From Verrucomicrobiota bacterium (GTDB taxonomy: Bacteria > Verrucomicrobiota > Verrucomicrobiia > Limisphaerales > DSYF01): 47,390 nucleotides of DNA. Both the position numbers and the translations under genes were made by a program. The notes under the pieces are model-generated. The model was not told the origin of the DNA, ran no database searches, and saw nothing but the letters and a program-made list of their open reading frames with translations. The stretch covers positions 1 through 47,390 of the forward strand of contig JALOTZ010000028.1 in assembly GCA_025457615.1 (NCBI GenBank), given 5' to 3'. Of the stretch, positions 29,957-39,323 are shown one piece after another. How positions within the stretch are numbered: the stretch's first letter is position 1; the number at the start of each line of letters is the position of its first letter.

Positions 29957-30010
29957 GAGAAAAACTTAACAAAGACGGCCTGAATGTCGAGGGATGCGGA
30001 ACTCGACACA

Positions 30011-30039
30011 TTGACAGGGGCGGCGACCTGCAATACTGT
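30011..30039 (+). promoter_or_regulatory. lexA promoter
   Basis: Perfect -35 TTGACA (30011-30016), 17-base spacer, -10-like TACTGT (30034-30039) lying inside the LexA operator. The predicted transcript start is near 30045-30047, which is why a start at 30053 is favoured for LexA. Confidence 0.65.
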
Positions 30040-30054
30040 CCAAATGGACAGTAT
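30033..30054. promoter_or_regulatory. LexA-type operator (perfect inverted repeat)
   Basis: ATACTGTCC-AAAT-GGACAGTAT: 9-bp perfect arms with a 4-base spacer. It covers the -10 element, the presumed transcript start and the first possible ATG (30044), and touches the second (30053). Spacing and symmetry are those of a LexA half-site pair, and its position before lexA implies autoregulation. Confidence 0.85.
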
Positions 30055-30682
30055 GCCAGCATTGACAGAAAAACAGCAGGCCGTGCTTGAATTCATTGCC
30101 GCAGCCACGGACCAAAACGGGTCGCCGCCCACGCTGCGCGAGATTGCCGGGCATTTCGGCTTTCGCAGCAAGACCGCGGCGGCTGACCACATCCGCGCCT
30201 TGCAGGCCAAGGGCCTGTTGCGTCAGGACGCGCCGCGCCGGGCTCGCGGGTTGCGTCTCAGCGGCATGGGCCGGCGTCGCCCGCGCCTCGACATCCCCAT
30301 CTTCGGCGCCATCCCGGCCGGGTTTCCCCAGGACCGCTACCAAGACGCCAAGGGCTGTGTTTCGGTGGATCTCTCCACGTTGGGGATCAAATCCACGCCA
30401 CGCACCTTCGCGCTCGAAGTTCGTGGGGATTCCATGATCGGCCGGCACATCTGCGACGGGGACCTCGTGGTGCTGGAGCATGGCCGCCCCCCCCGTTCCG
30501 GCGATGTGGTGGCCGCGCTGATCGACAACCAGAGCACGCTCAAGACCTACGTGCAGGAACGCGGGAAGCCGCCCCATCTCCAGGCGGAAAACCCGAAGTA
30601 TCCCCAACTGCATCCCGCGGCGGAGCTGGTCATTCAGGGTGTCATGATCGCGCTTTTGAGGAAGGCAGAATCACAATTTTAA
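30053..30682 (+). CDS. lexA: LexA repressor, SOS regulator
   Basis: 209 residues from the ATG at 30053. Winged HTH (LTEKQQAVLEFIAAATDQNG, then PPTLREIAGHFGF), then an S24 protease domain: cleavage site A89-G90 in FGAIPAGFP, catalytic S127 in RGDSMIG and K164 in STLKTYVQ. All self-cleavage residues are present, so it should be inactivated with RecA. The ATG at 30044 is in frame but lies inside the operator and at or before the likely transcript start. Downstream on the same strand are a GxxExxY gene and the DinB-DnaE fusion, a modified form of the lexA-imuB-dnaE2 mutagenesis cassette. Confidence 0.95.
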   Translation: MPALTEKQQAVLEFIAAATDQNGSPPTLREIAGHFGFRSKTAAADHIRALQAKGLLRQDAPRRARGLRLSGMGRRRPRLDIPIFGAIPAGFPQDRYQDAKGCVSVDLSTLGIKSTPRTFALEVRGDSMIGRHICDGDLVVLEHGRPPRSGDVVAALIDNQSTLKTYVQERGKPPHLQAENPKYPQLHPAAELVIQGVMIALLRKAESQF

Positions 30683-30772
30683 CGCAAAGGGCAAAGGCGC
30701 AAGGACGCAAAGAGTCTTCAAGCTGATAACCATCACATTTCTTTGCGTCTGCGTCCCATGCCCTTTGCGTTA
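30680..30772. repeat. Inverted heptamer-type repeat pair after lexA
   Basis: Left arm 30680-30712 (starts TAACGCAAAGGGCAAAGG) and right arm 30741-30772 (ends TGCCCTTTGCGTTA) are imperfect inverted copies. The left arm reads in seven-base units (CGCAAAG, GGCAAAG, GCGCAAG). It begins on the lexA stop codon. Confidence 0.8.
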
Positions 30773-30795
30773 CAGATTGAAACCCAAAAGGTGTC

Positions 30796-31212
30796 ATGAC
30801 TGAAAACGAACTGAGCAAGGTCATTGTAGAATGCGCCATCGAGGTCCACCGCATCTTGGGTGGGCCAGGGCTGCTTGAAAGTGTTTACGAAGAGGCGCTG
30901 GTTTACGAACTGGAGCAACGCGGCCTCCAGGTGAAGCGGCAGGCTCCTGTGCCGGTTACCTATAAAGGCCGGATTCTCGGGGCGCCGCTCCGCCTGGACC
31001 TGCAGATCAACGAACGGGTGCTGGTGGACAATAAAGCCACCACAGCCTACAACCCCATCTTTGAGGCACAGATGCTGACCTATCTGCGCATGACAGGACT
31101 CAAACTGGGTCTCGTTATCAACTCTGGTGAGCGTTATGTCAAAGACGGCATTCACCGCGTGGTGAATGGCCTCGATCTCAACGTCAGCAGCAAGCTGCCA
31201 GGATACAGATAG
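30796..31212 (+). CDS. GxxExxY protein (PDDEXK-like)
   Basis: 138 residues. Name motif GLLESVYEEAL (GxxExxY), then the strand-turn block LDLQINERVLVDNKATTAYN, where the usual E-x-K of the PDDEXK-like core is D-N-K, then IFEAQMLTYLRMTGLKLGLV and YVKDGIHRVVNGL. The family is widespread, of unknown function, and usually single-domain. It is bracketed by near-identical 32-34-bp repeats (30741-30772 and 31234-31267) in the same direction, so the gene looks like a movable cassette placed between lexA and the polymerase gene. Confidence 0.88.
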   Translation: MTENELSKVIVECAIEVHRILGGPGLLESVYEEALVYELEQRGLQVKRQAPVPVTYKGRILGAPLRLDLQINERVLVDNKATTAYNPIFEAQMLTYLRMTGLKLGLVINSGERYVKDGIHRVVNGLDLNVSSKLPGYR

Positions 31213-31233
31213 ATGCCTCTCCAATGATTCCAT

Positions 31234-31267
31234 CTTTGCGTCTCCGCGTCCCGTGCCCTTTGCGTTA
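31234..31267. repeat. Direct copy of the repeat flanking the GxxExxY gene
   Basis: Starts CTTTGCGTCTCCGCG and ends GCCCTTTGCGTTA; nearly identical and in the same direction as 30741-30772, so the GxxExxY gene lies between direct repeats. Confidence 0.8.
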
Positions 31268-31280
31268 AGTCCCCCGCCGT

Positions 31281-34200
31281 ATGGCGTTGCACTCACTTAT
31301 CCACATCGATGCCGACGCTTTCTTCGCCTCGGTGGAGCAGGCGGCGGATTCGCGGCTGCGCGGCCAGCCCATCGCTGTCGGCGGTGAGAAGCGGGGGATC
31401 ATCGCCAGCGCGAGTTACGAGGCCCGGAAGTTTGGCGTCTTCACCCCCATGCCCACCGCCCGGGCACGCCAGTTGTGTCCGCGCCTGATCGTGCTGCCCG
31501 GGGATTTCGAGAAGTACGAGCGGTTCAGCCGCTGGATGTTCAGCTACGCCTACGACTTCACGCCCGAGGTGGAGATCCACTCGATGGATGAAGGTTACTT
31601 TGACCTGACCGGGGCGCGCGGATCCCCGGTGGAAATCGCGCGGACCATCCGCGACGCCATCCAGCAGGCGCTTAAGATCAGCGTCAGCGAGGGCATCGGC
31701 AGCAGCAAACTCGTCAGCCAGATCGCCTCGAAATACCGCAAGCCGGCGGCGTTGGAATACGTGGCGCCCGGAAGCGAACTCGCCTTCCTGCATCCCCTGC
31801 CCAATCACTGGCTGCCGGGCATCGGACCGAAAACTGCCCTCCGCTTCAACGCGGGCGGACTCACGCACATCCATCACATCGCCGCCGCCCCGCTGGACCG
31901 GCTCAGCCTGCTGGTGGGCCGGGCGGCGGCGCAGTTGCGCGACTTCGCCAACGGCATCGATGACCGCCCCCTCACTCCGGGCAACGCGCCGGCCCAAAGT
32001 TACAGTCAGCAGGAAACCTTTGAAGCGGATCAGACCAACGAGGCGTTTCTCGAGGCCACGCTGCGCCGCATGGCGGACCATCTCTTCGCCCAGGTCCGCG
32101 CCGATGCCAAATGCATCCGCACGCTCACGGTCAAGGTCCGTTACAACGACATGGATGAAGATCAATGCAGTGAAAGCCTGGCCGAGCCCACCGACCTGGA
32201 AGCCGACGTTTACAGCCGGTTGCACGCGATGCTGCGCCGCGCCTGGAAACGCCGGGTCAGCCTCCGCCTCGTCTCCCTCAAACTCTCCAACCTCTACAAC
32301 GACATCCTCGGGTCCGAGCTCGCGCTGGACCGCGCGGCCCAACAGCACGACGCCCGGCGCCGGCTGGCCTCGACCGTGGACGCGCTCCGCGAGGAACGCG
32401 GCCGTTACAGCGTGATGCGCGGGCACGATTTGGAATTGCGGATTGTGGATTGTGGATTGCGGATTGAAGAAGGGAGACTTGCCGGGCGAGCACGAAGCAG
32501 CCAATCCGCAATCCACAATCCGCAATCCGCAATCGGTGCGGTTCCTCTCTGCGTTCGCAGTCATTACTCCTTCCTCAACTCCACGCTGTCGCCCGAGGAC
32601 ATCGTGGCGCTGGCGAAGCGGCACGGGTTGACGTCCGTCGCGCTCTGCGACCAGGGCAACCTGCACGGGGCGCCGGCGTTTGCCACGGCGGCCCGGTCGG
32701 CGGGTATCCGGCCAGTGTTCGGAACGGAGATCCCGGTGAATGGGAAACCCTTGCGGCTGTATGTGGAGAATGCGGAGGGATACGCCAACCTGTGTCGGTG
32801 GCTGTCGAGGAAGGCGGATGGCGGATTGCAGATTGGAGATTGCCGAAGACAGAAGGGCTTCGAATCGAACATTCTGCCCTCTGCCCTCTGCCCTCTGCCT
32901 TCCCCCGCCCCCCTCTCCGGGCTGTTGGCCATCTCCTCCGACGCCTCCCTGGCCCCATGTTTTCCCGGCCGCTTCTACCTGGGCATCACGCATCCGGACG
33001 AGCTGCGCCGCCTGCGCAATCCGGACCGGCTGCCCGTGGTGGCCGTGCAGCCGGTCCATTACGCCACGCCAGCGGACCGCTGGAAGTGGAACATCCTGCA
33101 GAGCATCCGCACCCTCACCCTGCTGCGGCAGGAGCACCCGGAGAAACAGTTGGACGGCGACTTTCACTTCCGTCCGCCCGGCGAACTGGCGGATCTGTTC
33201 CGCGACCATCCCGGGCTGCTGCGCTGCACGCAGGACATTGCCGAACGCTGCGCCGGATTCGAGTTCCCGTTTGGCAAGCCGCAATTCCCGGCATTCCGCA
33301 CGCCGGACGGCTTCGGTTCCCGCGAGTTCCTGCGTCAGTTGGTGCTGCGCGGGTTTGAAGCGCGTTATGCCGGTTCACGCGCCACCCGCCGCGGATCGGG
33401 CACGAGGACGAAAGACGAGGACGAAGGACAAGGACGATTCGATTTGTCCCGCATCCGCGCCCAGGTGGAGACCGAGCTGCAGATCATTCATGAGGTCGGG
33501 TACGAGGACTATTTTCTCATCGTCTGGGATCTGCTGCGCGAGTGCCGGGGGCGGGGCATCGACTGGATCACGCGCGGCTCGGCGGCGGACTCGCTGGTGT
33601 GCCATTGCCTGGGCATCTCGAACGTCTGCCCGGTGCGGTTCGATCTCTACTTTCGCCGGTTTCTCAACCCGGAGCGCATGGCGCTGAACAAGCTGCCGGA
33701 CATCGACATCGATTTTCCGCACGACCGCAAGGACGACGTGGTGAATCTGCTGTTCGAGAAGTACGGGCCGGAGCACTGCGCCGTCGTGGGCGGGTTTTCG
33801 ACCTTCCAGGCGCGCAGCGCGTTTGCCGAGGTGGCCAAGGTGCTCGGGGTGGCGGAACGGGACGCGCGCCGATTCACGGAACACTTTCCATGGAGGTTTG
33901 AGGAAAGGCAGAATGAAGAAGGCAGAGCGCAGAAGGCAGAGGGTAGCCCGTCCTCCGCCACGACCCTGCTCCAGGGGGTGGAAAGGCAGACGTGTCCGGG
34001 CGAAGCAAGTCAGCCATCTGCCTTCTGCAATCTGCCTTCCGCCTTGGCGGAGCAGCTCCGCCGGCGTCCGGAAACCGCCGGTCTGCCGCTGGATGAGGAG
34101 CCCTATCGCAGCGCGCTGCTCATGGCCGGGTTTCTCGACGGCCGGCCGCGTTATCCCAAGATGCATCCGTGCGGCGTGGTGCTGTCGCGCCCGCCGATGC

Positions 34201-35930
34201 ATGACCTGACGCCCACGTGGGTCTCGCAGAAAGGCTGGGCCACGACGCAGTTCGACATGGACGCGGTCGAGGCGGTGGGCCTGGTGAAGATGGACATCCT
34301 GGCCCAGGGCGGCCTGGCCGTGATGCGGGACACACAGGCGGCGCTGGCCAGGCGGAACCTTGCGGTGAACCGGGAGCGGTTCGATGACGCCGCCGTTTGG
34401 GATCTCATCGCCTCGGGCAACGCGCGCGCGGTGCATCACATCGAGTCGCCGGCCATGATCTCGCTGTGTCGCATGACCAACGTGCGCGACATCGACACGC
34501 TGATTGCCCTCGTCAGCGTCATCCGGCCAGGCGCGGCCAACGAGGACAAGAAGCGCGAGTTCACGCGGCGCTACCAGGGATTGAGCCCGGTCACCTACCC
34601 GCATCCTTCGTTGGAGCCCTGTCTGCGGAGCACGTTCGGGCTGGTGGTGTACGAGGAGCACATCCTGCAAATTTGCGAGGCGTTTGCCGGGTTGTCCGGG
34701 GGGCGCGCGGACGTGTTGCGCCGGGCGTTGGTGAAGGAGAACTGGCCGGTGGTGAGGGCGATTGAACGGGAGTTTGTCGCCAGCGCCCGGAAGCGGGGGC
34801 AGGCGGAGGAAGACACGGCCCGGGTCTGGGAGGTGGTGACTGGCTTTCACGGATACGCCTTCTGCAAGGCGCACAGCACGGCCTACGGCGTCGAGGCGTA
34901 TCAAAGCGCCTGGTTGAAGCGCTATTTCCCCGCTGAATTCATGGCCGCCGTGCTCACCCACGGCAAGGGCTTCTATCATCCGCTGGTCTATGTGCTTGAA
35001 TGCTGGCGGCTGGGCCTCGGGATGCTGCCACCCCGGGTGAATGAGCCGGGACCGGGCTTCGCGGTGAAGTCAGATTGCAGAAGTCAGATTGCAAAAGGAA
35101 AAGGATCCGGCACTTCTGCAACCTGTCCACCCTCCGTAGCAGAGCCACGGCGGAGGACGGGCAATCCGCCTTCGGCCTGCTTGCGCGTCCCCGTCACCTC
35201 CATCGCTTCACTGACGGAGCAGACCAAGGAACGCCTTCTGGCCGAACGCCAGCACGGCGAGTTCACCTCGCTGGCGGATTTCTACCGGCGCGTGAACCCG
35301 TCGCGGGAGGAACTGGAGATCCTGTCGCGGGCGGGGGCGCTGGACGAATTCGGCCAGACCCGTTGCGAACAGTTCTGGGAAATCCAGCACCTCGTCGCCC
35401 GCTGGGGCGGCGGCGGGGAGCCGGGACAGGGGTGGCTGTTCTCCAAGGCGGAAGGCAGAAGGCAGATTGCAGAAGGAAAAAGGGCTGGCACTTCTGCAAT
35501 CTGCAATCTCCCTTCTGCGTTCACCGAGCCTTCCCGTCTCCAGCGGTTGCAGTGGGAGGCGGAGTTGCTGGGCTTTCCAGCCAGCGGACATCCGCTGGAA
35601 CGGTATCCGGACATTGCCTGGGACACGTATTGCCCGGTGTCGCGGCTGGGGGCGTTTGTGGGGCAGGAGGTGACCTTGTGTGGATTGGTGGTCGAGGATC
35701 GCGTGCATCACCAGGTCACCGGCGAGCCGATGAAGTTTCTGACCCTGTGCGACTGGACGGGGATGGTGGAGACGGAACTGTTTGCCGCCACCTACAAGAG
35801 CCACGGGCTGGCGACCGTGCGGTATCCGGTGCTGGAGGTCACCGGCCGGGTGGAGGCGTTCGAGAATGGCCGCGGGCACACGCTGCGCGTGTTGCGGGCG
35901 GGAAAACCCCGGACCATCGGCGGGAGGTAG
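31281..35930 (+). CDS. Fused Y-family (DinB) and C-family (DnaE2-type) DNA polymerase
   Basis: One uninterrupted 1549-codon frame. Residues 1-384 are a DNA polymerase IV: LIHIDADAFFASVE with metal ligand D10, SMDEGYFDLTG with D103/E104 (intact, unlike ImuB), thumb HhH near GIGPKTA, and little-finger end RYSVMRGHDL. Residues 385-418 are encoded by a palindromic repeat. Residues 420-1549 are a DnaE-type polymerase: PHP domain start (VRSHYSFLNSTLSPEDIVAL), palm motif LPDIDIDF with D807/D809, third acid D1005 in LVKMDILAQ, fingers (GFHGYAFCKAHSTAYG), HhH and a C-terminal OB fold (VTLCGLVVEDRVHHQV and following). It should carry out error-prone lesion bypass in the SOS response. Repeat-derived in-frame inserts lie near residues 510-541, 707-719, 874-922, 1263-1298 and 1389-1414. 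No clear ribosome site before the ATG; probably read through from lexA. Confidence 0.92.
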   Translation: MALHSLIHIDADAFFASVEQAADSRLRGQPIAVGGEKRGIIASASYEARKFGVFTPMPTARARQLCPRLIVLPGDFEKYERFSRWMFSYAYDFTPEVEIHSMDEGYFDLTGARGSPVEIARTIRDAIQQALKISVSEGIGSSKLVSQIASKYRKPAALEYVAPGSELAFLHPLPNHWLPGIGPKTALRFNAGGLTHIHHIAAAPLDRLSLLVGRAAAQLRDFANGIDDRPLTPGNAPAQSYSQQETFEADQTNEAFLEATLRRMADHLFAQVRADAKCIRTLTVKVRYNDMDEDQCSESLAEPTDLEADVYSRLHAMLRRAWKRRVSLRLVSLKLSNLYNDILGSELALDRAAQQHDARRRLASTVDALREERGRYSVMRGHDLELRIVDCGLRIEEGRLAGRARSSQSAIHNPQSAIGAVPLCVRSHYSFLNSTLSPEDIVALAKRHGLTSVALCDQGNLHGAPAFATAARSAGIRPVFGTEIPVNGKPLRLYVENAEGYANLCRWLSRKADGGLQIGDCRRQKGFESNILPSALCPLPSPAPLSGLLAISSDASLAPCFPGRFYLGITHPDELRRLRNPDRLPVVAVQPVHYATPADRWKWNILQSIRTLTLLRQEHPEKQLDGDFHFRPPGELADLFRDHPGLLRCTQDIAERCAGFEFPFGKPQFPAFRTPDGFGSREFLRQLVLRGFEARYAGSRATRRGSGTRTKDEDEGQGRFDLSRIRAQVETELQIIHEVGYEDYFLIVWDLLRECRGRGIDWITRGSAADSLVCHCLGISNVCPVRFDLYFRRFLNPERMALNKLPDIDIDFPHDRKDDVVNLLFEKYGPEHCAVVGGFSTFQARSAFAEVAKVLGVAERDARRFTEHFPWRFEERQNEEGRAQKAEGSPSSATTLLQGVERQTCPGEASQPSAFCNLPSALAEQLRRRPETAGLPLDEEPYRSALLMAGFLDGRPRYPKMHPCGVVLSRPPMHDLTPTWVSQKGWATTQFDMDAVEAVGLVKMDILAQGGLAVMRDTQAALARRNLAVNRERFDDAAVWDLIASGNARAVHHIESPAMISLCRMTNVRDIDTLIALVSVIRPGAANEDKKREFTRRYQGLSPVTYPHPSLEPCLRSTFGLVVYEEHILQICEAFAGLSGGRADVLRRALVKENWPVVRAIEREFVASARKRGQAEEDTARVWEVVTGFHGYAFCKAHSTAYGVEAYQSAWLKRYFPAEFMAAVLTHGKGFYHPLVYVLECWRLGLGMLPPRVNEPGPGFAVKSDCRSQIAKGKGSGTSATCPPSVAEPRRRTGNPPSACLRVPVTSIASLTEQTKERLLAERQHGEFTSLADFYRRVNPSREELEILSRAGALDEFGQTRCEQFWEIQHLVARWGGGGEPGQGWLFSKAEGRRQIAEGKRAGTSAICNLPSAFTEPSRLQRLQWEAELLGFPASGHPLERYPDIAWDTYCPVSRLGAFVGQEVTLCGLVVEDRVHHQVTGEPMKFLTLCDWTGMVETELFAATYKSHGLATVRYPVLEVTGRVEAFENGRGHTLRVLRAGKPRTIGGR
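32435..32533. repeat. Palindromic element at the DinB/DnaE joint
   Basis: Arms of 31 bp (32435-32465, starting ATTGCGGATTGTGG, and 32503-32533) match as inverted repeats with one mismatch; loop 37 bases; total 99 bases = 33 codons. The arms are iterations of a seven-base unit (CGGATTG/TGGATTG). Confidence 0.93.
32809..32904. repeat. Heptamer palindromic element inside the DnaE half (1)
   Basis: Left arm GGAAGGCGGATGGCGGATTG (from 32809) and right arm of repeated CCTCTGC units (32871-32904) form an imperfect inverted repeat, translated in frame (GGLQIGDCRRQKG and SALCPLPSPAP). Confidence 0.7.
33401..33438. repeat. Short GA-rich repeat inside the DnaE half (2)
   Basis: Iterated ACGAGGACGAA-like units encode the charged stretch GTRTKDEDEGQGR; no second arm is seen, so it may be half an element or a simple repeat. 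Confidence 0.45.
33902..34046. repeat. Heptamer palindromic element inside the DnaE half (3)
   Basis: Left arm of AAGGCAG-type units (33902-33945) and right arm of CTTCTGC/AATCTGC units (34011-34046) are inverted partners, with about 65 bases between. Translated in frame as a roughly 49-residue insert in the palm/finger region. Confidence 0.75.
35067..35175. repeat. Heptamer palindromic element inside the DnaE half (4)
   Basis: Left arm AGTCAGATTGCAGAAGTCAG (from 35068) and a short right arm CACTTCTGCAACCTG (35111-35125), then a stretch (35134-35165) resembling the inverse of the loop of the element at 33902-34046. Encodes SDCRSQIAKGKGSGTSATC and a Pro/Arg-rich tail. Confidence 0.65.
35445..35522. 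repeat. Heptamer palindromic element inside the DnaE half (5)
   Basis: Left arm reads AAGGCGG, AAGGCAG, AAGGCAG, ATTGCAG, AAGGAAA; right arm reads CTTCTGC, AATCTGC, AATCTCC, CTTCTGC. 78 bases = 26 codons, in frame. Confidence 0.82.
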
Positions 35931-36114: not shown

Positions 36115-37749
36115 GTGACGGAATCCGTGTTCTTACAGCAACTGGGGCTGATCGTGGCGGGGGCGGCGGTCTGTGTGTTGGCCGCCCGCAGGTTCAAGCT
36201 CCCCTCGATCATCGCCTACCTGGTGGCCGGCCTGATCCTCGGGCCTTGGACGAACCTGGTCGAGGTCACCGGCTCGCTGGACCTGATTTCCGAGGCAGGC
36301 ATCGTGCTCCTGCTCTTTCTGGTCGGACTGGAGTTGCGCCTGGACAAGATCAAGGGGGTGGGAAAGGTGGTGGCGCTGGCCGGCCTGGTCCAGGTGCTGG
36401 CCACCCTGGCCGCCGGATTCCTGCTCTGCCGCGCCCTCGGTCTGGGCGCGACGGAATCCGCCTTCCTGGCGCTGGCTTTGACGTTCAGCAGCACGGTGGT
36501 GGCGGTGAAGCTGCTGGAGGAAACGCAGCAGTTCGACAGCCTGCATGGACGCATCGCCGTGGGCATTCTGCTGTTCCAGGACCTGGTGGTCATCGTGCTG
36601 CTGACACTGCTGGGCGGATTTCAGCCGGAGTCCCAACTGCGCTGGGAAACGGCCGGTCAGAGCGTGGGGCTGGCGCTGGTCAAGATGATGGCGCTCGTCG
36701 CCGCGGTGCTGGCGGTTTCCCGCTACGCGCTTCCCCAACCGTTTGCGTGGATGGCGCGGCTGCCGTCGGGGTTGTTCATCTGGAGCCTGTGCTGGTGCTT
36801 CTTCGTGGTGGCCGCCGCCCACGGACTTCACCTTTCCAGGGAAACCGGGGCCTTCCTGGCCGGCGTGAGCCTGGCCCAACTGCCCTATGACCATGATCTG
36901 CGGCGCCGGGTGCGCCCGCTGATGGACTTCTTCATCGCGGTGTTCTTTGTGTCGCTGGGGGCGCGGATGGACCCGGGGGCGGCCGCCGGCGAATGGGAGC
37001 TGGCCCTGACCCTGGCCCTGTTCGCGCTGGCCGGCAAGTTCGCCGTGGTGATGTTCACGCTGGCGCGACTGAAGGTCGGCGAACGCACGTCGCAGTTTGT
37101 CGCCCTCACCCTCGCCCAGATCAGTGAATTCTCCTTCATCCTCACAGCCGCGGCGGTGAGGTCGGGCTGGGTGGAGGACAAGGTTCTGGACCTGGTGGGG
37201 CTGATCGGCTTGCTGACGTTTTCCGTGTCGGCCTGCTTCATCATCCACAACAAAGCGGTTTACTTCTGGTCGCGGCGGCTCGGGTTGCTCAAGCCCTTTC
37301 TGGCCCGGCGCCACGACGCGATGGGATCCCGTCCGCGCCGGCCCCACCAACACATCATCGTGGTCGGCATGAACACCCTGGGGCGCGCCATCGTGTCGCG
37401 CCTTCAGTCCCGCGGCGAGCAGGTGCTGGCGGTGGATACCGATCCGCACAAGCTGGCCGGCCTGCCCTGCGAAACATTGCTGGGCGACGTGGAATGCTTC
37501 CCCGTCCTGGAGGAGGCGGGATTGCCCCACGCCAAGCTTCTGGTGTCGGCCCTGCGCATCGAACCCACGAACGATCTGCTGGCCTACCGCTGCCAGCAGG
37601 CCGGTATCCCGTGCAGCATCCAAGCGGTGGACCTGACCACCACGGACAACCTGCTCGAGATGGATGTGAAGTACCTGATGATTCCCAAGGTGGACGGCAT
37701 CAAACTGCAAAACCGCGAGCTGCGGGAACGCGGCTTCCTCAGCGCATGA
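36115..37749 (+). CDS. Kef-type cation:proton antiporter (CPA2) with TrkA-N domain (1)
   Basis: 544 residues from a GTG preceded by AAAGGA. About 12 membrane segments (for example FLQQLGLIVAGAAVCVLAAR and LPSIIAYLVAGLILGPWTNL), the antiporter motif AGIVLLLFLVGLELRLDKIK, and FLALALTFSSTVVAVKLLEE. A C-terminal Rossmann RCK/TrkA-N domain starts near residue 415 (HIIVVGMNTLGRAIVSRLQS). It probably exports K+ or Na+ in exchange for protons, gated by nucleotide. The start of the next antiporter overlaps its stop (ATGA). Confidence 0.88.
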   Translation: MTESVFLQQLGLIVAGAAVCVLAARRFKLPSIIAYLVAGLILGPWTNLVEVTGSLDLISEAGIVLLLFLVGLELRLDKIKGVGKVVALAGLVQVLATLAAGFLLCRALGLGATESAFLALALTFSSTVVAVKLLEETQQFDSLHGRIAVGILLFQDLVVIVLLTLLGGFQPESQLRWETAGQSVGLALVKMMALVAAVLAVSRYALPQPFAWMARLPSGLFIWSLCWCFFVVAAAHGLHLSRETGAFLAGVSLAQLPYDHDLRRRVRPLMDFFIAVFFVSLGARMDPGAAAGEWELALTLALFALAGKFAVVMFTLARLKVGERTSQFVALTLAQISEFSFILTAAAVRSGWVEDKVLDLVGLIGLLTFSVSACFIIHNKAVYFWSRRLGLLKPFLARRHDAMGSRPRRPHQHIIVVGMNTLGRAIVSRLQSRGEQVLAVDTDPHKLAGLPCETLLGDVECFPVLEEAGLPHAKLLVSALRIEPTNDLLAYRCQQAGIPCSIQAVDLTTTDNLLEMDVKYLMIPKVDGIKLQNRELRERGFLSA

Positions 37750-39323
37750 ACAGCCTGGCGGTCATTCTGGTGGTGGCGGCGGCCGGGTTCGGACTGGCGC
37801 GCTGGACCCGGCTGCCGGTGATCCCGCTGTTGCTGCTGGCGGGCATATCGCTGCCGTTGTCCGGGTTGCGGCAGGAGGAGCGCTTCTTGCAGGACGCCTT
37901 CCATCTGGGCATGGCCGTTCTGGTCTTTGTGGCCGGCATCGAGCTGAATCCCGACCGGTTCAAGGGGCTGTTCAAGTCGGTGCTCCTGGTGGGGTTCGGA
38001 CAATTCCTGGGGGCGGCGGTGGCTGGGTTCACGGTGGCGACACTGATCGGGTTCGACGCGGTGGAGGCGCTTTACCTCGGCCTGGCGCTCTCCACGAGTT
38101 CGACGCTGGTGGTGGTGCATCATCTCAAGCAACAGCAGCAGATGTTCGAACCGTTCGGCCGGCTGGTGATCGGGGTGCTGCTGGTGCAGGACTTGTTGAT
38201 GATTCTGGTCATCGTGGGGGTTTCCCGCTGGTTGAACGGCTCGCTGGCCATCGCGCAAGGGTTGGCGGCGGCGGCCGGACTGGCGGGCCTCGCGCTGGCC
38301 TGCCAGCGCTGGGTGATGCCCTTCCTCCTGATGCGCCTCAAACTGGACGACGAAGCCCTGCTGCTGCTCCTCCTGGCGTTGCTGTTCGGCTTCATCGGAC
38401 TGGCCCGCCTGGTCCAGGTGCCGCTGGTGGCCGGGGCGTTCCTGGCCGGGTTCGCCCTGGCCCGCTTCCCGGTCAACGGCGTGGCGCGAGGCGTGTTGCT
38501 GTCCCTGGGCGACTTCTTCCGCGCGATCTTCTTCGTCGCGATGGGCAGCCTGGTGGTGGTTCCCGATCTCGCGCTGCTCGGGCAGGCGGCGGCGCTGGCG
38601 TTGATGGTGTTGCTGGTGACGCCGCCGTTGGTGGCCGCGGTGGCGGAATGGCGGGGGATGATGTCGCGCCCGGCCATGGAGAGCGGATTGTTGCTGGCGC
38701 AGACCAGCGAACTGGCGCTCGTCCTGGGGCTGACGGGTTACGAGATGTCGGGCCAGGTGTCGCCCCGGATTTTCTCCCTGATTGCGCTGGTCACGGTCAT
38801 GACGATGACCCTGACGCCGTTTGTGGCCACGGACCGGTTCACCACCTTTCTGCTGCACCTGCACCCGTTGCGGCGGCGGATGAAAGCCGGGGAACCCATC
38901 AGCGGACACGTGCTGGTGCTGGGGTTCGGGGCCGGCGGCATGTGGGTGATCAAACCGCTGCTCCAGGCGGGACACCGGCTGCTGGTGGTGGATGACGATC
39001 CGGCGGTGGTCGAACAATTGACGCGGATGAACATTCCCTGCCTCCGCGGTGACGGATCCGATGACAAGGTGCTGGACAGGGCGGGAGCCGGCCGGGCGCG
39101 GCTTATCCTGGCCTCGATGCGGCGCGTGGCCGACACCCGCCGTGTTCTTCAACATGTGCAGGGGGTGCCGGTGGTGGCGCGCGTGTTCGAGGCGGACGAA
39201 GCGGATCAGGTCCGGCGCCTGGGAGGAACACCCATCCTCAATTCCCTGGCGGCCGCCGACACCTTCACCGAGTGGTTCGACAAGACCATGGCCGCGGGGA
39301 ACGATCGCAGCACGGCCGCGTGA
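37746..39323 (+). CDS. Kef-type cation:proton antiporter (CPA2) with TrkA-N domain (2)
   Basis: 525 residues from the ATG at 37746, overlapping the previous stop by 4 bases. Membrane part with LGMAVLVFVAGIELNPDRFK and LYLGLALSTSSTLVVVHHLK, and a C-terminal TrkA-N domain (HVLVLGFGAGGMWVIKPLLQ and LLVVDDDPAVVEQL). The sequence differs widely from the upstream antiporter, so this is not a recent duplication. Coupled translation suggests the two make a hetero-oligomer or two transporters needed together. The frame is open further upstream but there lies within the first antiporter gene. Confidence 0.88.
   Translation: MNSLAVILVVAAAGFGLARWTRLPVIPLLLLAGISLPLSGLRQEERFLQDAFHLGMAVLVFVAGIELNPDRFKGLFKSVLLVGFGQFLGAAVAGFTVATLIGFDAVEALYLGLALSTSSTLVVVHHLKQQQQMFEPFGRLVIGVLLVQDLLMILVIVGVSRWLNGSLAIAQGLAAAAGLAGLALACQRWVMPFLLMRLKLDDEALLLLLLALLFGFIGLARLVQVPLVAGAFLAGFALARFPVNGVARGVLLSLGDFFRAIFFVAMGSLVVVPDLALLGQAAALALMVLLVTPPLVAAVAEWRGMMSRPAMESGLLLAQTSELALVLGLTGYEMSGQVSPRIFSLIALVTVMTMTLTPFVATDRFTTFLLHLHPLRRRMKAGEPISGHVLVLGFGAGGMWVIKPLLQAGHRLLVVDDDPAVVEQLTRMNIPCLRGDGSDDKVLDRAGAGRARLILASMRRVADTRRVLQHVQGVPVVARVFEADEADQVRRLGGTPILNSLAAADTFTEWFDKTMAAGNDRSTAA

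Follow-up and report, generated by a model that had tools for sequence, protein, structure and literature searches.

A DinB–DnaE2-type polymerase fusion encoded behind lexA in Verrucomicrobia: a candidate single-chain mutasome

INTRODUCTION

Can a Y-family polymerase and a DnaE2-type polymerase be made as one chain and, if so, what kind of enzyme would result? This question is raised by a reading frame in the window, by which we mean the whole analysed stretch of 47,390 nucleotides from a Verrucomicrobiota bacterium (GenBank assembly GCA_025457615.1, contig JALOTZ010000028.1). Mutasomes are believed to unite DnaE2 with a Y-family protein and with either RecA or ImuA. The looseness of their subunits makes the roles of inserter and extender, as well as the unity of PolY and DnaE2, hard to test. 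A fixed 1:1 fusion in a widespread uncultured lineage would be natural evidence for the predicted partnership of active PolY with DnaE2, and would allow either active site to be inactivated on its own within a single protein.

RESULTS AND DISCUSSION

One open frame with Y-family and C-family domains

A preliminary description of this DNA had proposed that DinB and a DnaE2-type polymerase share a single uninterrupted frame. This was borne out, as all 1549 codons are open and Pfam finds the Y-family domains followed by those of the C family, giving the following layout, in which the border of the Y-family half at aa 386 is our own choice.

31281..35930, + strand: fused dinB::dnaE2 gene, a single open frame of 1549 aa
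31281..32438, + strand: Y-family (DinB/PolY) half and tail, aa 1–386, with the IMS and IMS_C domains
32439..32540, + strand: interdomain linker, here largely an inverted repeat built of 7-nt units
32541..35927, + strand: C-family (DnaE2-type) half with PHP, palm, fingers and HhH, from Pfam and the DnaE tree

The N-terminal half thus carries both Y-family domains, IMS (aa 9–151; 147.9 bits, cut-off 23.2) and IMS_C (239–338; 63.4 bits, cut-off 20.7), after which come PHP (425–513), DNA_pol3_alpha (684–1008), the finger domain (1013–1173) and HHH_6 (1248–1363). The PHP-like start ascribed earlier to the C-family half is present, albeit with degraded metal residues, whereas the OB-fold end ascribed to it was not recovered, Pfam reporting no OB domain in the 1549-aa protein.

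Occurrence of the fusion in other genomes

The window genome (94.46% complete) is spread over 96 contigs and the DNA at the junction is repetitive, both of which would suit an artefact, be it a chimeric contig, a frameshift from sequencing or two genes read through as one. A search of genomes for co-linear DinB–DnaE proteins, as the preliminary description had asked for, gave 98 candidate frames, of which 61 were distinct; 54 of these were full length, including that of the window, and 7 partial, and they came from many assemblies. One fused gene (in G281) lies on a single-contig genome of 4,726,914 bases, and another (L041) on a record titled SCGC AAA164-E04, a name suggesting single-cell origin. 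With 54 junctions open, one of them on that 4.7-Mb contig, the concern over a join at 32400–32560 is allayed, and for the family as a whole we rejected an assembly artefact, to which we would give practically no chance.

The 48 loci of the contig search were titled Verrucomicrobia and kin, Limisphaera(les), Pedosphaera, Akkermansia (two), PVC group (two), Kiritimatiellae (one) or merely 'bacterium' (one), and among the full-length fused frames were, by hand count, those of 39 coded genomes with 30 family codes. Within the window's order, 114 of 245 genomes matched the fused protein at E ≤ 1e-100, and at least 70 of the 245 (hand count) had a stop-free frame of at least 1400 aa containing a match, four of these 70 showing a listed match to one half only. 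The class sample gave matches at 1e-80 in 74 of 286 genomes, a count that includes f67 genomes in which only a stand-alone DinB reaches this threshold. In the phylum sample matches were found in 31 of 387 genomes, those outside the class being only G324 and G520, with G520 the sole out-of-class genome having a match that crosses the junction. Among the closest relatives, a genome of the same genus (G001) matched in pieces from two contigs, one of which spans the junction (aa 336–464) before it is broken, and two of the same family (G002 and G003) gave no match at 1e-100. A phage or plasmid origin was rejected, since in none of 72,556 plasmid and 50,697 phage records did a single place account for 80% of the protein; viral contigs scanned with a pattern likewise yielded nothing.

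Conservation of both active sites

The catalytic residues of both halves could be assigned by alignment to the polymerases of E. coli.

31308..31316, + strand: PolY D10 and D12, both D in 54/54, corresponding to E. coli DinB D8 and D10
31587..31592, + strand: PolY catalytic D103-E104, 54/54, corresponding to E. coli DinB D103 and E104
33699..33707, + strand: C-family catalytic D807-x-D809, 54/54, corresponding to E. coli DnaE D401 and D403
34293..34295, + strand: C-family catalytic D1005, 54/54, corresponding to E. coli DnaE D555

The triads named earlier, D10/D103/E104 and D807/D809/D1005, were therefore correct, and together with D12 they are invariant in all 54 full-length fused proteins, window included. 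At the steric-gate position, 33 of the first set of 35 fused rows have F and the other two have Y. Both polymerase halves are thus apparently active, judged from their residues. None of the three comparison rows, two ImuB and one iPolY, has the complete PolY catalytic set.

The class of the DnaE half

In the DnaE tree (63 rows, including 36 of the 54 fused proteins; a quick search under LG+G4 with SH-aLRT support only, and with composition and long-branch warnings), the DnaE half fell on the DnaE2 side of a branch with a support of 100, with the DnaE1 rows outside. The DnaE2-side branch (support 100) comprises 53 rows, among them all DnaE2-labelled rows. The NCBIfam DnaE2 model NF004225 gave 465 bits, under its cut-off of 939, and the replicative DnaE model NF004226 gave 593 bits, above the DnaE2 score but under its own cut-off of 1002; the polc superfamily model TIGR00594 was passed (548 bits, cut-off 434). 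Because of these model scores we regard the half as DnaE2-type by the tree and not as a canonical DnaE2. As to the PHP metal site, the His of DHG is absent in all five fused rows displayed (36 aligned) and the first HxH in four of these five, being kept in L036. The label 'DnaE2-type' would hence rest on the tree and on this degraded metal site. A second DnaE of the window genome, on contig C79, groups with the replicative-type DnaE of relatives.

The linker and its repeats

The stretch at aa 386–422 is 36 aa long in the window and ranges from 28 to 101 aa across the 54 fused proteins. Their linkers comprise 2441 codons with no stop, compared with about 68 stops expected from composition, a count that is only supporting as the rows had been picked as open frames. 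No ATG occurs in 38 of the 54 junctions, 49 have some ATG, GTG or TTG codon, and in five, the window not among them, a start codon is preceded by an SD-like sequence. The two halves are thus likely to be translated as a single chain.

In the window the linker DNA is peculiar, with inverted-repeat arms at 32435–32466 and 32502–32533 that are 97% complementary, and related blocks recur within the gene.

32435–32533, 32811–32902, 33905–34045, 35062–35175 and 35445–35522: in-frame inverted-repeat blocks of 7-nt units, of GGATTGT and GGCAGAA types

Twelve of the 13 matches to GGCAGANGGCAGA in the window fall inside the fused gene, although only 0.35 would be expected over its full 47,390 nucleotides. 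Such a palindromic repeat could have caused the fusion in the window genome by removing the stop codon of dinB, as would fit a linker made almost wholly of it and the further in-frame copies elsewhere in the gene. The linkers of the other 53 fused relatives lie at the same place and have similar lengths, but are mostly unrelated to it in sequence, only a few (e.g. L049, L097 and L099) looking repeat-derived by eye. We therefore rejected the repeat as the origin of the fusion, a role for which we see next to no likelihood, and consider it a later tenant of a tolerant linker. Rickettsia palindromic elements are tolerated inside protein linkers, and the repeat blocks of the fused gene resemble such small elements.

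Fused and split genes

The Verrucomicrobia rows of the DnaE tree form one clade (support 100) inside the DnaE2-side branch, and the sister of the fused family consists of the Adhaeribacter and Persicobacter DnaE together with that of Desulfosarcina (support 98, with a long-branch warning). Split DnaE genes (L105, L062, L063 and L064) and an f82 copy (L134) are nested among the fused rows, and L029 is unplaced at the base. With U_L029 and SP_L052 set aside, the minimum number of changes between the fused and split states is five, which a single fusion followed by four splits would most simply explain, although a count of changes cannot separate gain from loss. A DinB tree (57 rows, 31 of the 54 fused proteins, quick method) agrees in outline, with the f67 stand-alone DinBs and L109 outside. 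In the f82 loci L134, L135 and L136, dinB and dnaE are adjacent genes on the same strand, and in other genomes the halves lie far apart. Beside dinB, lexA remains in five split loci (L070, L071, L075, L152 and L166); next to the split dinB of L104, and in the f82 loci L134–L140, none was detected.

Several genomes encode the halves apart, so that the covalent link is dispensable in these, and the nested position of the split genes means that most of the lineages sampled have retained the joined form. These patterns bear upon the notion that fusion serves merely as a stoichiometry device, one frame supplying two polymerases that act independently, do not cooperate within the molecule and may even be parted through proteolysis or internal initiation. 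The very existence of unfused halves, adjacent or distant, would suit that notion, as would the variable length of the linker and the presence of some potential start codon in most junctions. It is opposed by the scarcity of ATG codons and SD-preceded starts at the junctions, the window having none of the latter, and by the retention of joining in most sampled lineages, and we hold it to be unlikely.

On an Adhaeribacter plasmid, the annotated dinB–dnaE pair overlaps by 4 nt, an arrangement that is one step from fusion.

RecA-NT-like and clamp-like motifs

Two short motifs suggest how the protein might be tied to RecA and to the sliding clamp.

32358..32420, + strand: RecA-NT-like motif, aa 360–380 (RRLASTVDALREERGRYSVMR), from a profile scan of 54 rows
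35427..35441, + strand: QGWLF, putative beta-clamp motif, aa 1383–1387 in the DnaE half, from counts over 54 rows

When a 21-mer of the E. coli RecA N-terminus was run along the 54-row profile, aa 360 scored best of 1529 start positions (29.7, the next 11.4), and the RecA N-terminus of the window's own genome picked aa 358 (25.4, the next 15.2). A RecA-NT motif has been described in PolY tails (passages of PMC6511836; PMC12926913, sections 14, 16, 19 and 24). DUF4113, the Pfam model for the RecA-NT motif family, gave no match in the three fused tails tried and a weak one, under its cut-off, in the Adhaeribacter DinB (E 0.018).

In the columns of the clamp-like motif, Q is found in 44 of 54 proteins and hence missing in 10, W in 41 and L in 49, with F (8) or L (38) in the last place. 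A clamp-binding function of this QxWLL/F element is suggested by the beta-clamp consensus QxxLF, as given in section 16 of PMC12926913. The DinB tail of the fused proteins has an ELPLE-like sequence where its own clamp motif would be expected (E in 42, L in 52 and L in 49 of 54 at places 1, 2 and 4), and stand-alone DinB tails carry a clamp motif, QLEMF in the verrucomicrobial L167 and QIDLF in Adhaeribacter. From this we infer that clamp binding may have shifted from the DinB half to the DnaE half.

A PolY that may not bind the clamp alone would also suit a DinB half that in practice is a scaffold, bringing RecA and DNA to DnaE2 as ImuB does, with its intact site contributing little; this would parallel the recruitment of DnaE2 by ImuB as described in section 19 of PMC12926913. 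Such a role leaves D10, D12, D103 and E104 in 54 of 54 proteins, and the near-constant F at the steric gate, hard to explain, the more so as the two ImuB rows and the iPolY row lack the complete set. Conservation of the catalytic set over such distances argues that the PolY site is used, and we regard a pure scaffold as quite improbable.

lexA, a candidate operator and the neighbouring genes

Upstream of the fused gene lie the following features.

29984..30682, + strand: lexA (listed ORF), with LexA_DNA_bind (66.8 bits) and Peptidase_S24 (79 bits)
30034..30053, no strand assigned: LexA operator candidate at the lexA start, the perfect palindrome TACTGTCC-AAAT-GGACAGTA
30796..31212, + strand: PDDEXK_3 gene between lexA and the fused gene, from a domain match

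The true start of lexA may be the ATG at 30053, where the Pfam domain begins. A same-strand lexA is found upstream in 45 of the 54 fused loci, at distances of 7 to 602 nt; of the remaining nine, three have less than 1 kb of upstream DNA, one has a divergent lexA and five have none in more than 3 kb. The divergent case is L147 (in G242).

The palindrome overlaps the TACTGT (30034) of a promoter-like TTGACA(30011)-17-TACTGT, as seen by eye. Among 56 distinct lexA upstreams, 32 carried perfect inverted arms of at least 8 nt and 24 did not, whereas 200 mononucleotide shuffles gave 0.13 such cases on average and never more than 2. Excluded from this count were the Kitasatospora row, upstreams that were cut or contained N, lexA matches beginning beyond residue 15 and upstreams nearly identical to another, which left first 60 and then 56. 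The arm sequences vary between species. In the window's own genome the palindrome occurs without mismatch at one place, with another place at three mismatches, and the reversed control pattern also has one place. One LexA is over the cut-off in this genome, a second, weak LexA-domain match being under it. Linkage to lexA and a candidate operator are thus both found, which points to a LexA-regulated SOS operon. A paper by Erill from 2016 is said to deal with the LexA motif of Verrucomicrobia.

The PDDEXK_3 gene, which we take to be of the GxxExxY type, is probably a passenger. It is flanked by perfect 15-nt inverted repeats (TTAACGCAAAGGGCA/TGCCCTTTGCGTTAA; window 30679–31268), and among the 54 full fused loci the window is the only one to have it between lexA and the fused gene. 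At the same spot, the partial locus L082 holds a related gene (45%), whose long inverted repeats are imperfect and differ in sequence from those of the window. The upstream lexA, the RecA-NT-like motif, the clamp-like QxWLL/F motif and the repeat-derived linker had all been absent from the preliminary description.

Comparison with known systems

One counterpart is the ImuA–ImuB–DnaE2 mutasome, which likewise combines a Y-family homolog with DnaE2 in a LexA-linked cassette, as known from the literature (e.g. PMC3919608). In that system, however, ImuB is a separate and catalytically dead protein, as seen in the two ImuB rows compared, whereas the Y-family half of the fusion keeps its catalytic set in 54 of 54 proteins, so that the contrast drawn earlier stands and the fused protein is not ImuA–ImuB–DnaE2. 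Neither imuA nor imuB lies next to the fused gene, in agreement with the preliminary description. This gene is the only IMS-model match in the 94.46% complete window genome, and the Pfam RecA model found one protein there at E ≤ 0.001, being a general model that a diverged ImuA could escape; in contrast to genomes with ImuA–ImuB–DnaE2, neither a second IMS protein nor a second RecA-family protein was thus found.

Another is the putative DnaE2B–PolY–RecA mutasome of Bacteroidetes. Complexes of separate, active PolY and DnaE2 have been predicted there (excerpts of PMC6511836; PMC12926913, section 19), and the system would share with the fusion an active PolY with a RecA-NT-like motif and a DnaE2-type polymerase, with no ImuA or ImuB. 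The Adhaeribacter and Persicobacter rows are, by our own assignment, the DnaE2B of PMC12926913. There the two polymerases are two proteins, whereas in the fused family they are a single chain, and because the subunits form one chain the fused protein is by definition not a member of the DnaE2–PolY–RecA kind. The Adhaeribacter PolY further differs in having kept QIDLF where the fused DinB tail is ELPLE-like.

A Kitasatospora plasmid cassette (L185) also has PolY, an error-prone polymerase and lexA side by side, but as separate genes with lexA downstream; its PolY, a distant row, does not keep the catalytic positions in the alignment, and its DnaE2 groups with ImuB-linked DnaE2 rows (support 100). 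With E. coli DinB (Pol IV) and DnaE (Pol III alpha), each fused half aligns across the catalytic residues, although the two are independent proteins in E. coli.

The layout had been put forward as undescribed, which held for the covalent fusion but not for an active PolY with a DnaE2 partner, already predicted. We found no description of a DinB–DnaE fusion in the open-licence PMC literature, and there is none in the excerpts of PMC3919608, PMC8565304 and PMC9927291. PMC12926913 surveys more than 3000 species whose genomes are complete and distinguishes 11 types of association; its main text never uses 'fusion', has 'fused' twice, each time in another context, and mentions Verrucomicrobia a single time. 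The novelty, then, lies in the covalent link, in the lineage and in a cassette headed by lexA, the PolY–DnaE2 partnership being known as a prediction.

A proposed role in translesion synthesis

On the sequence evidence taken together, we consider it fairly probable that the gene encodes a single-chain, LexA-controlled SOS translesion enzyme, in which a flexible linker connects an active PolY with a DnaE2-type polymerase that is likewise active and poor in proofreading, making it a covalent form of the DnaE2–PolY–RecA mutasome. Upon damage, RecA would trigger self-cleavage of LexA and the lexA–dinB::dnaE2 cassette would be expressed. The RecA-NT-like segment would then dock RecA while the DnaE half would hold the clamp via QxWLL/F, and PolY and DnaE2 would alternate on one primer end, one inserting and the other extending, with no need for a separate recruiter such as ImuB.

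More tentatively, the primer end could be passed between PolY and DnaE2 inside one molecule, with the protein's own motif tying it to RecA, its DnaE half tying it to the clamp, and control exerted through a single-copy perfect LexA box. Because a box without mismatch occurs once in the genome, this cassette may make up the entire lexA regulon. That the only perfect operator belongs to a lexA–fusion cassette also hints that the SOS response may have been narrowed down to a switch for mutagenesis.

Additional observations

AlphaFold2 modelling of the first 1200 aa of the relative L076 (33 rows) gave a mean pLDDT of 75.9 and a pTM of 0.63, with residues 1–110 and 112–157 below a pLDDT of 50, the DinB palm unresolved and no usable arrangement of the two halves.

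In three cases the frame of a DnaE half ends at aa ~1030–1036, between palm and finger (L012/L089 with L090 in G022; L055; L164 with L165 in G148). Two of these three have the remainder on a different contig, which would fit either a split polymerase or an assembly break; no intein parts were recognised by eye in these three halves.

Two contigs titled Akkermansia muciniphila (L060 and L072) carry fused genes 60% and 59% identical to the window protein, and these titles of metagenome bins are probably wrong. One genome (G162) has two different full-length fused genes, L158 and L159 (on C41 and C31), each behind a lexA. Downstream of the fused gene in the window, at 36115–39323, lies a tandem pair of KefC-like Na+/H+ exchanger–TrkA_N genes.
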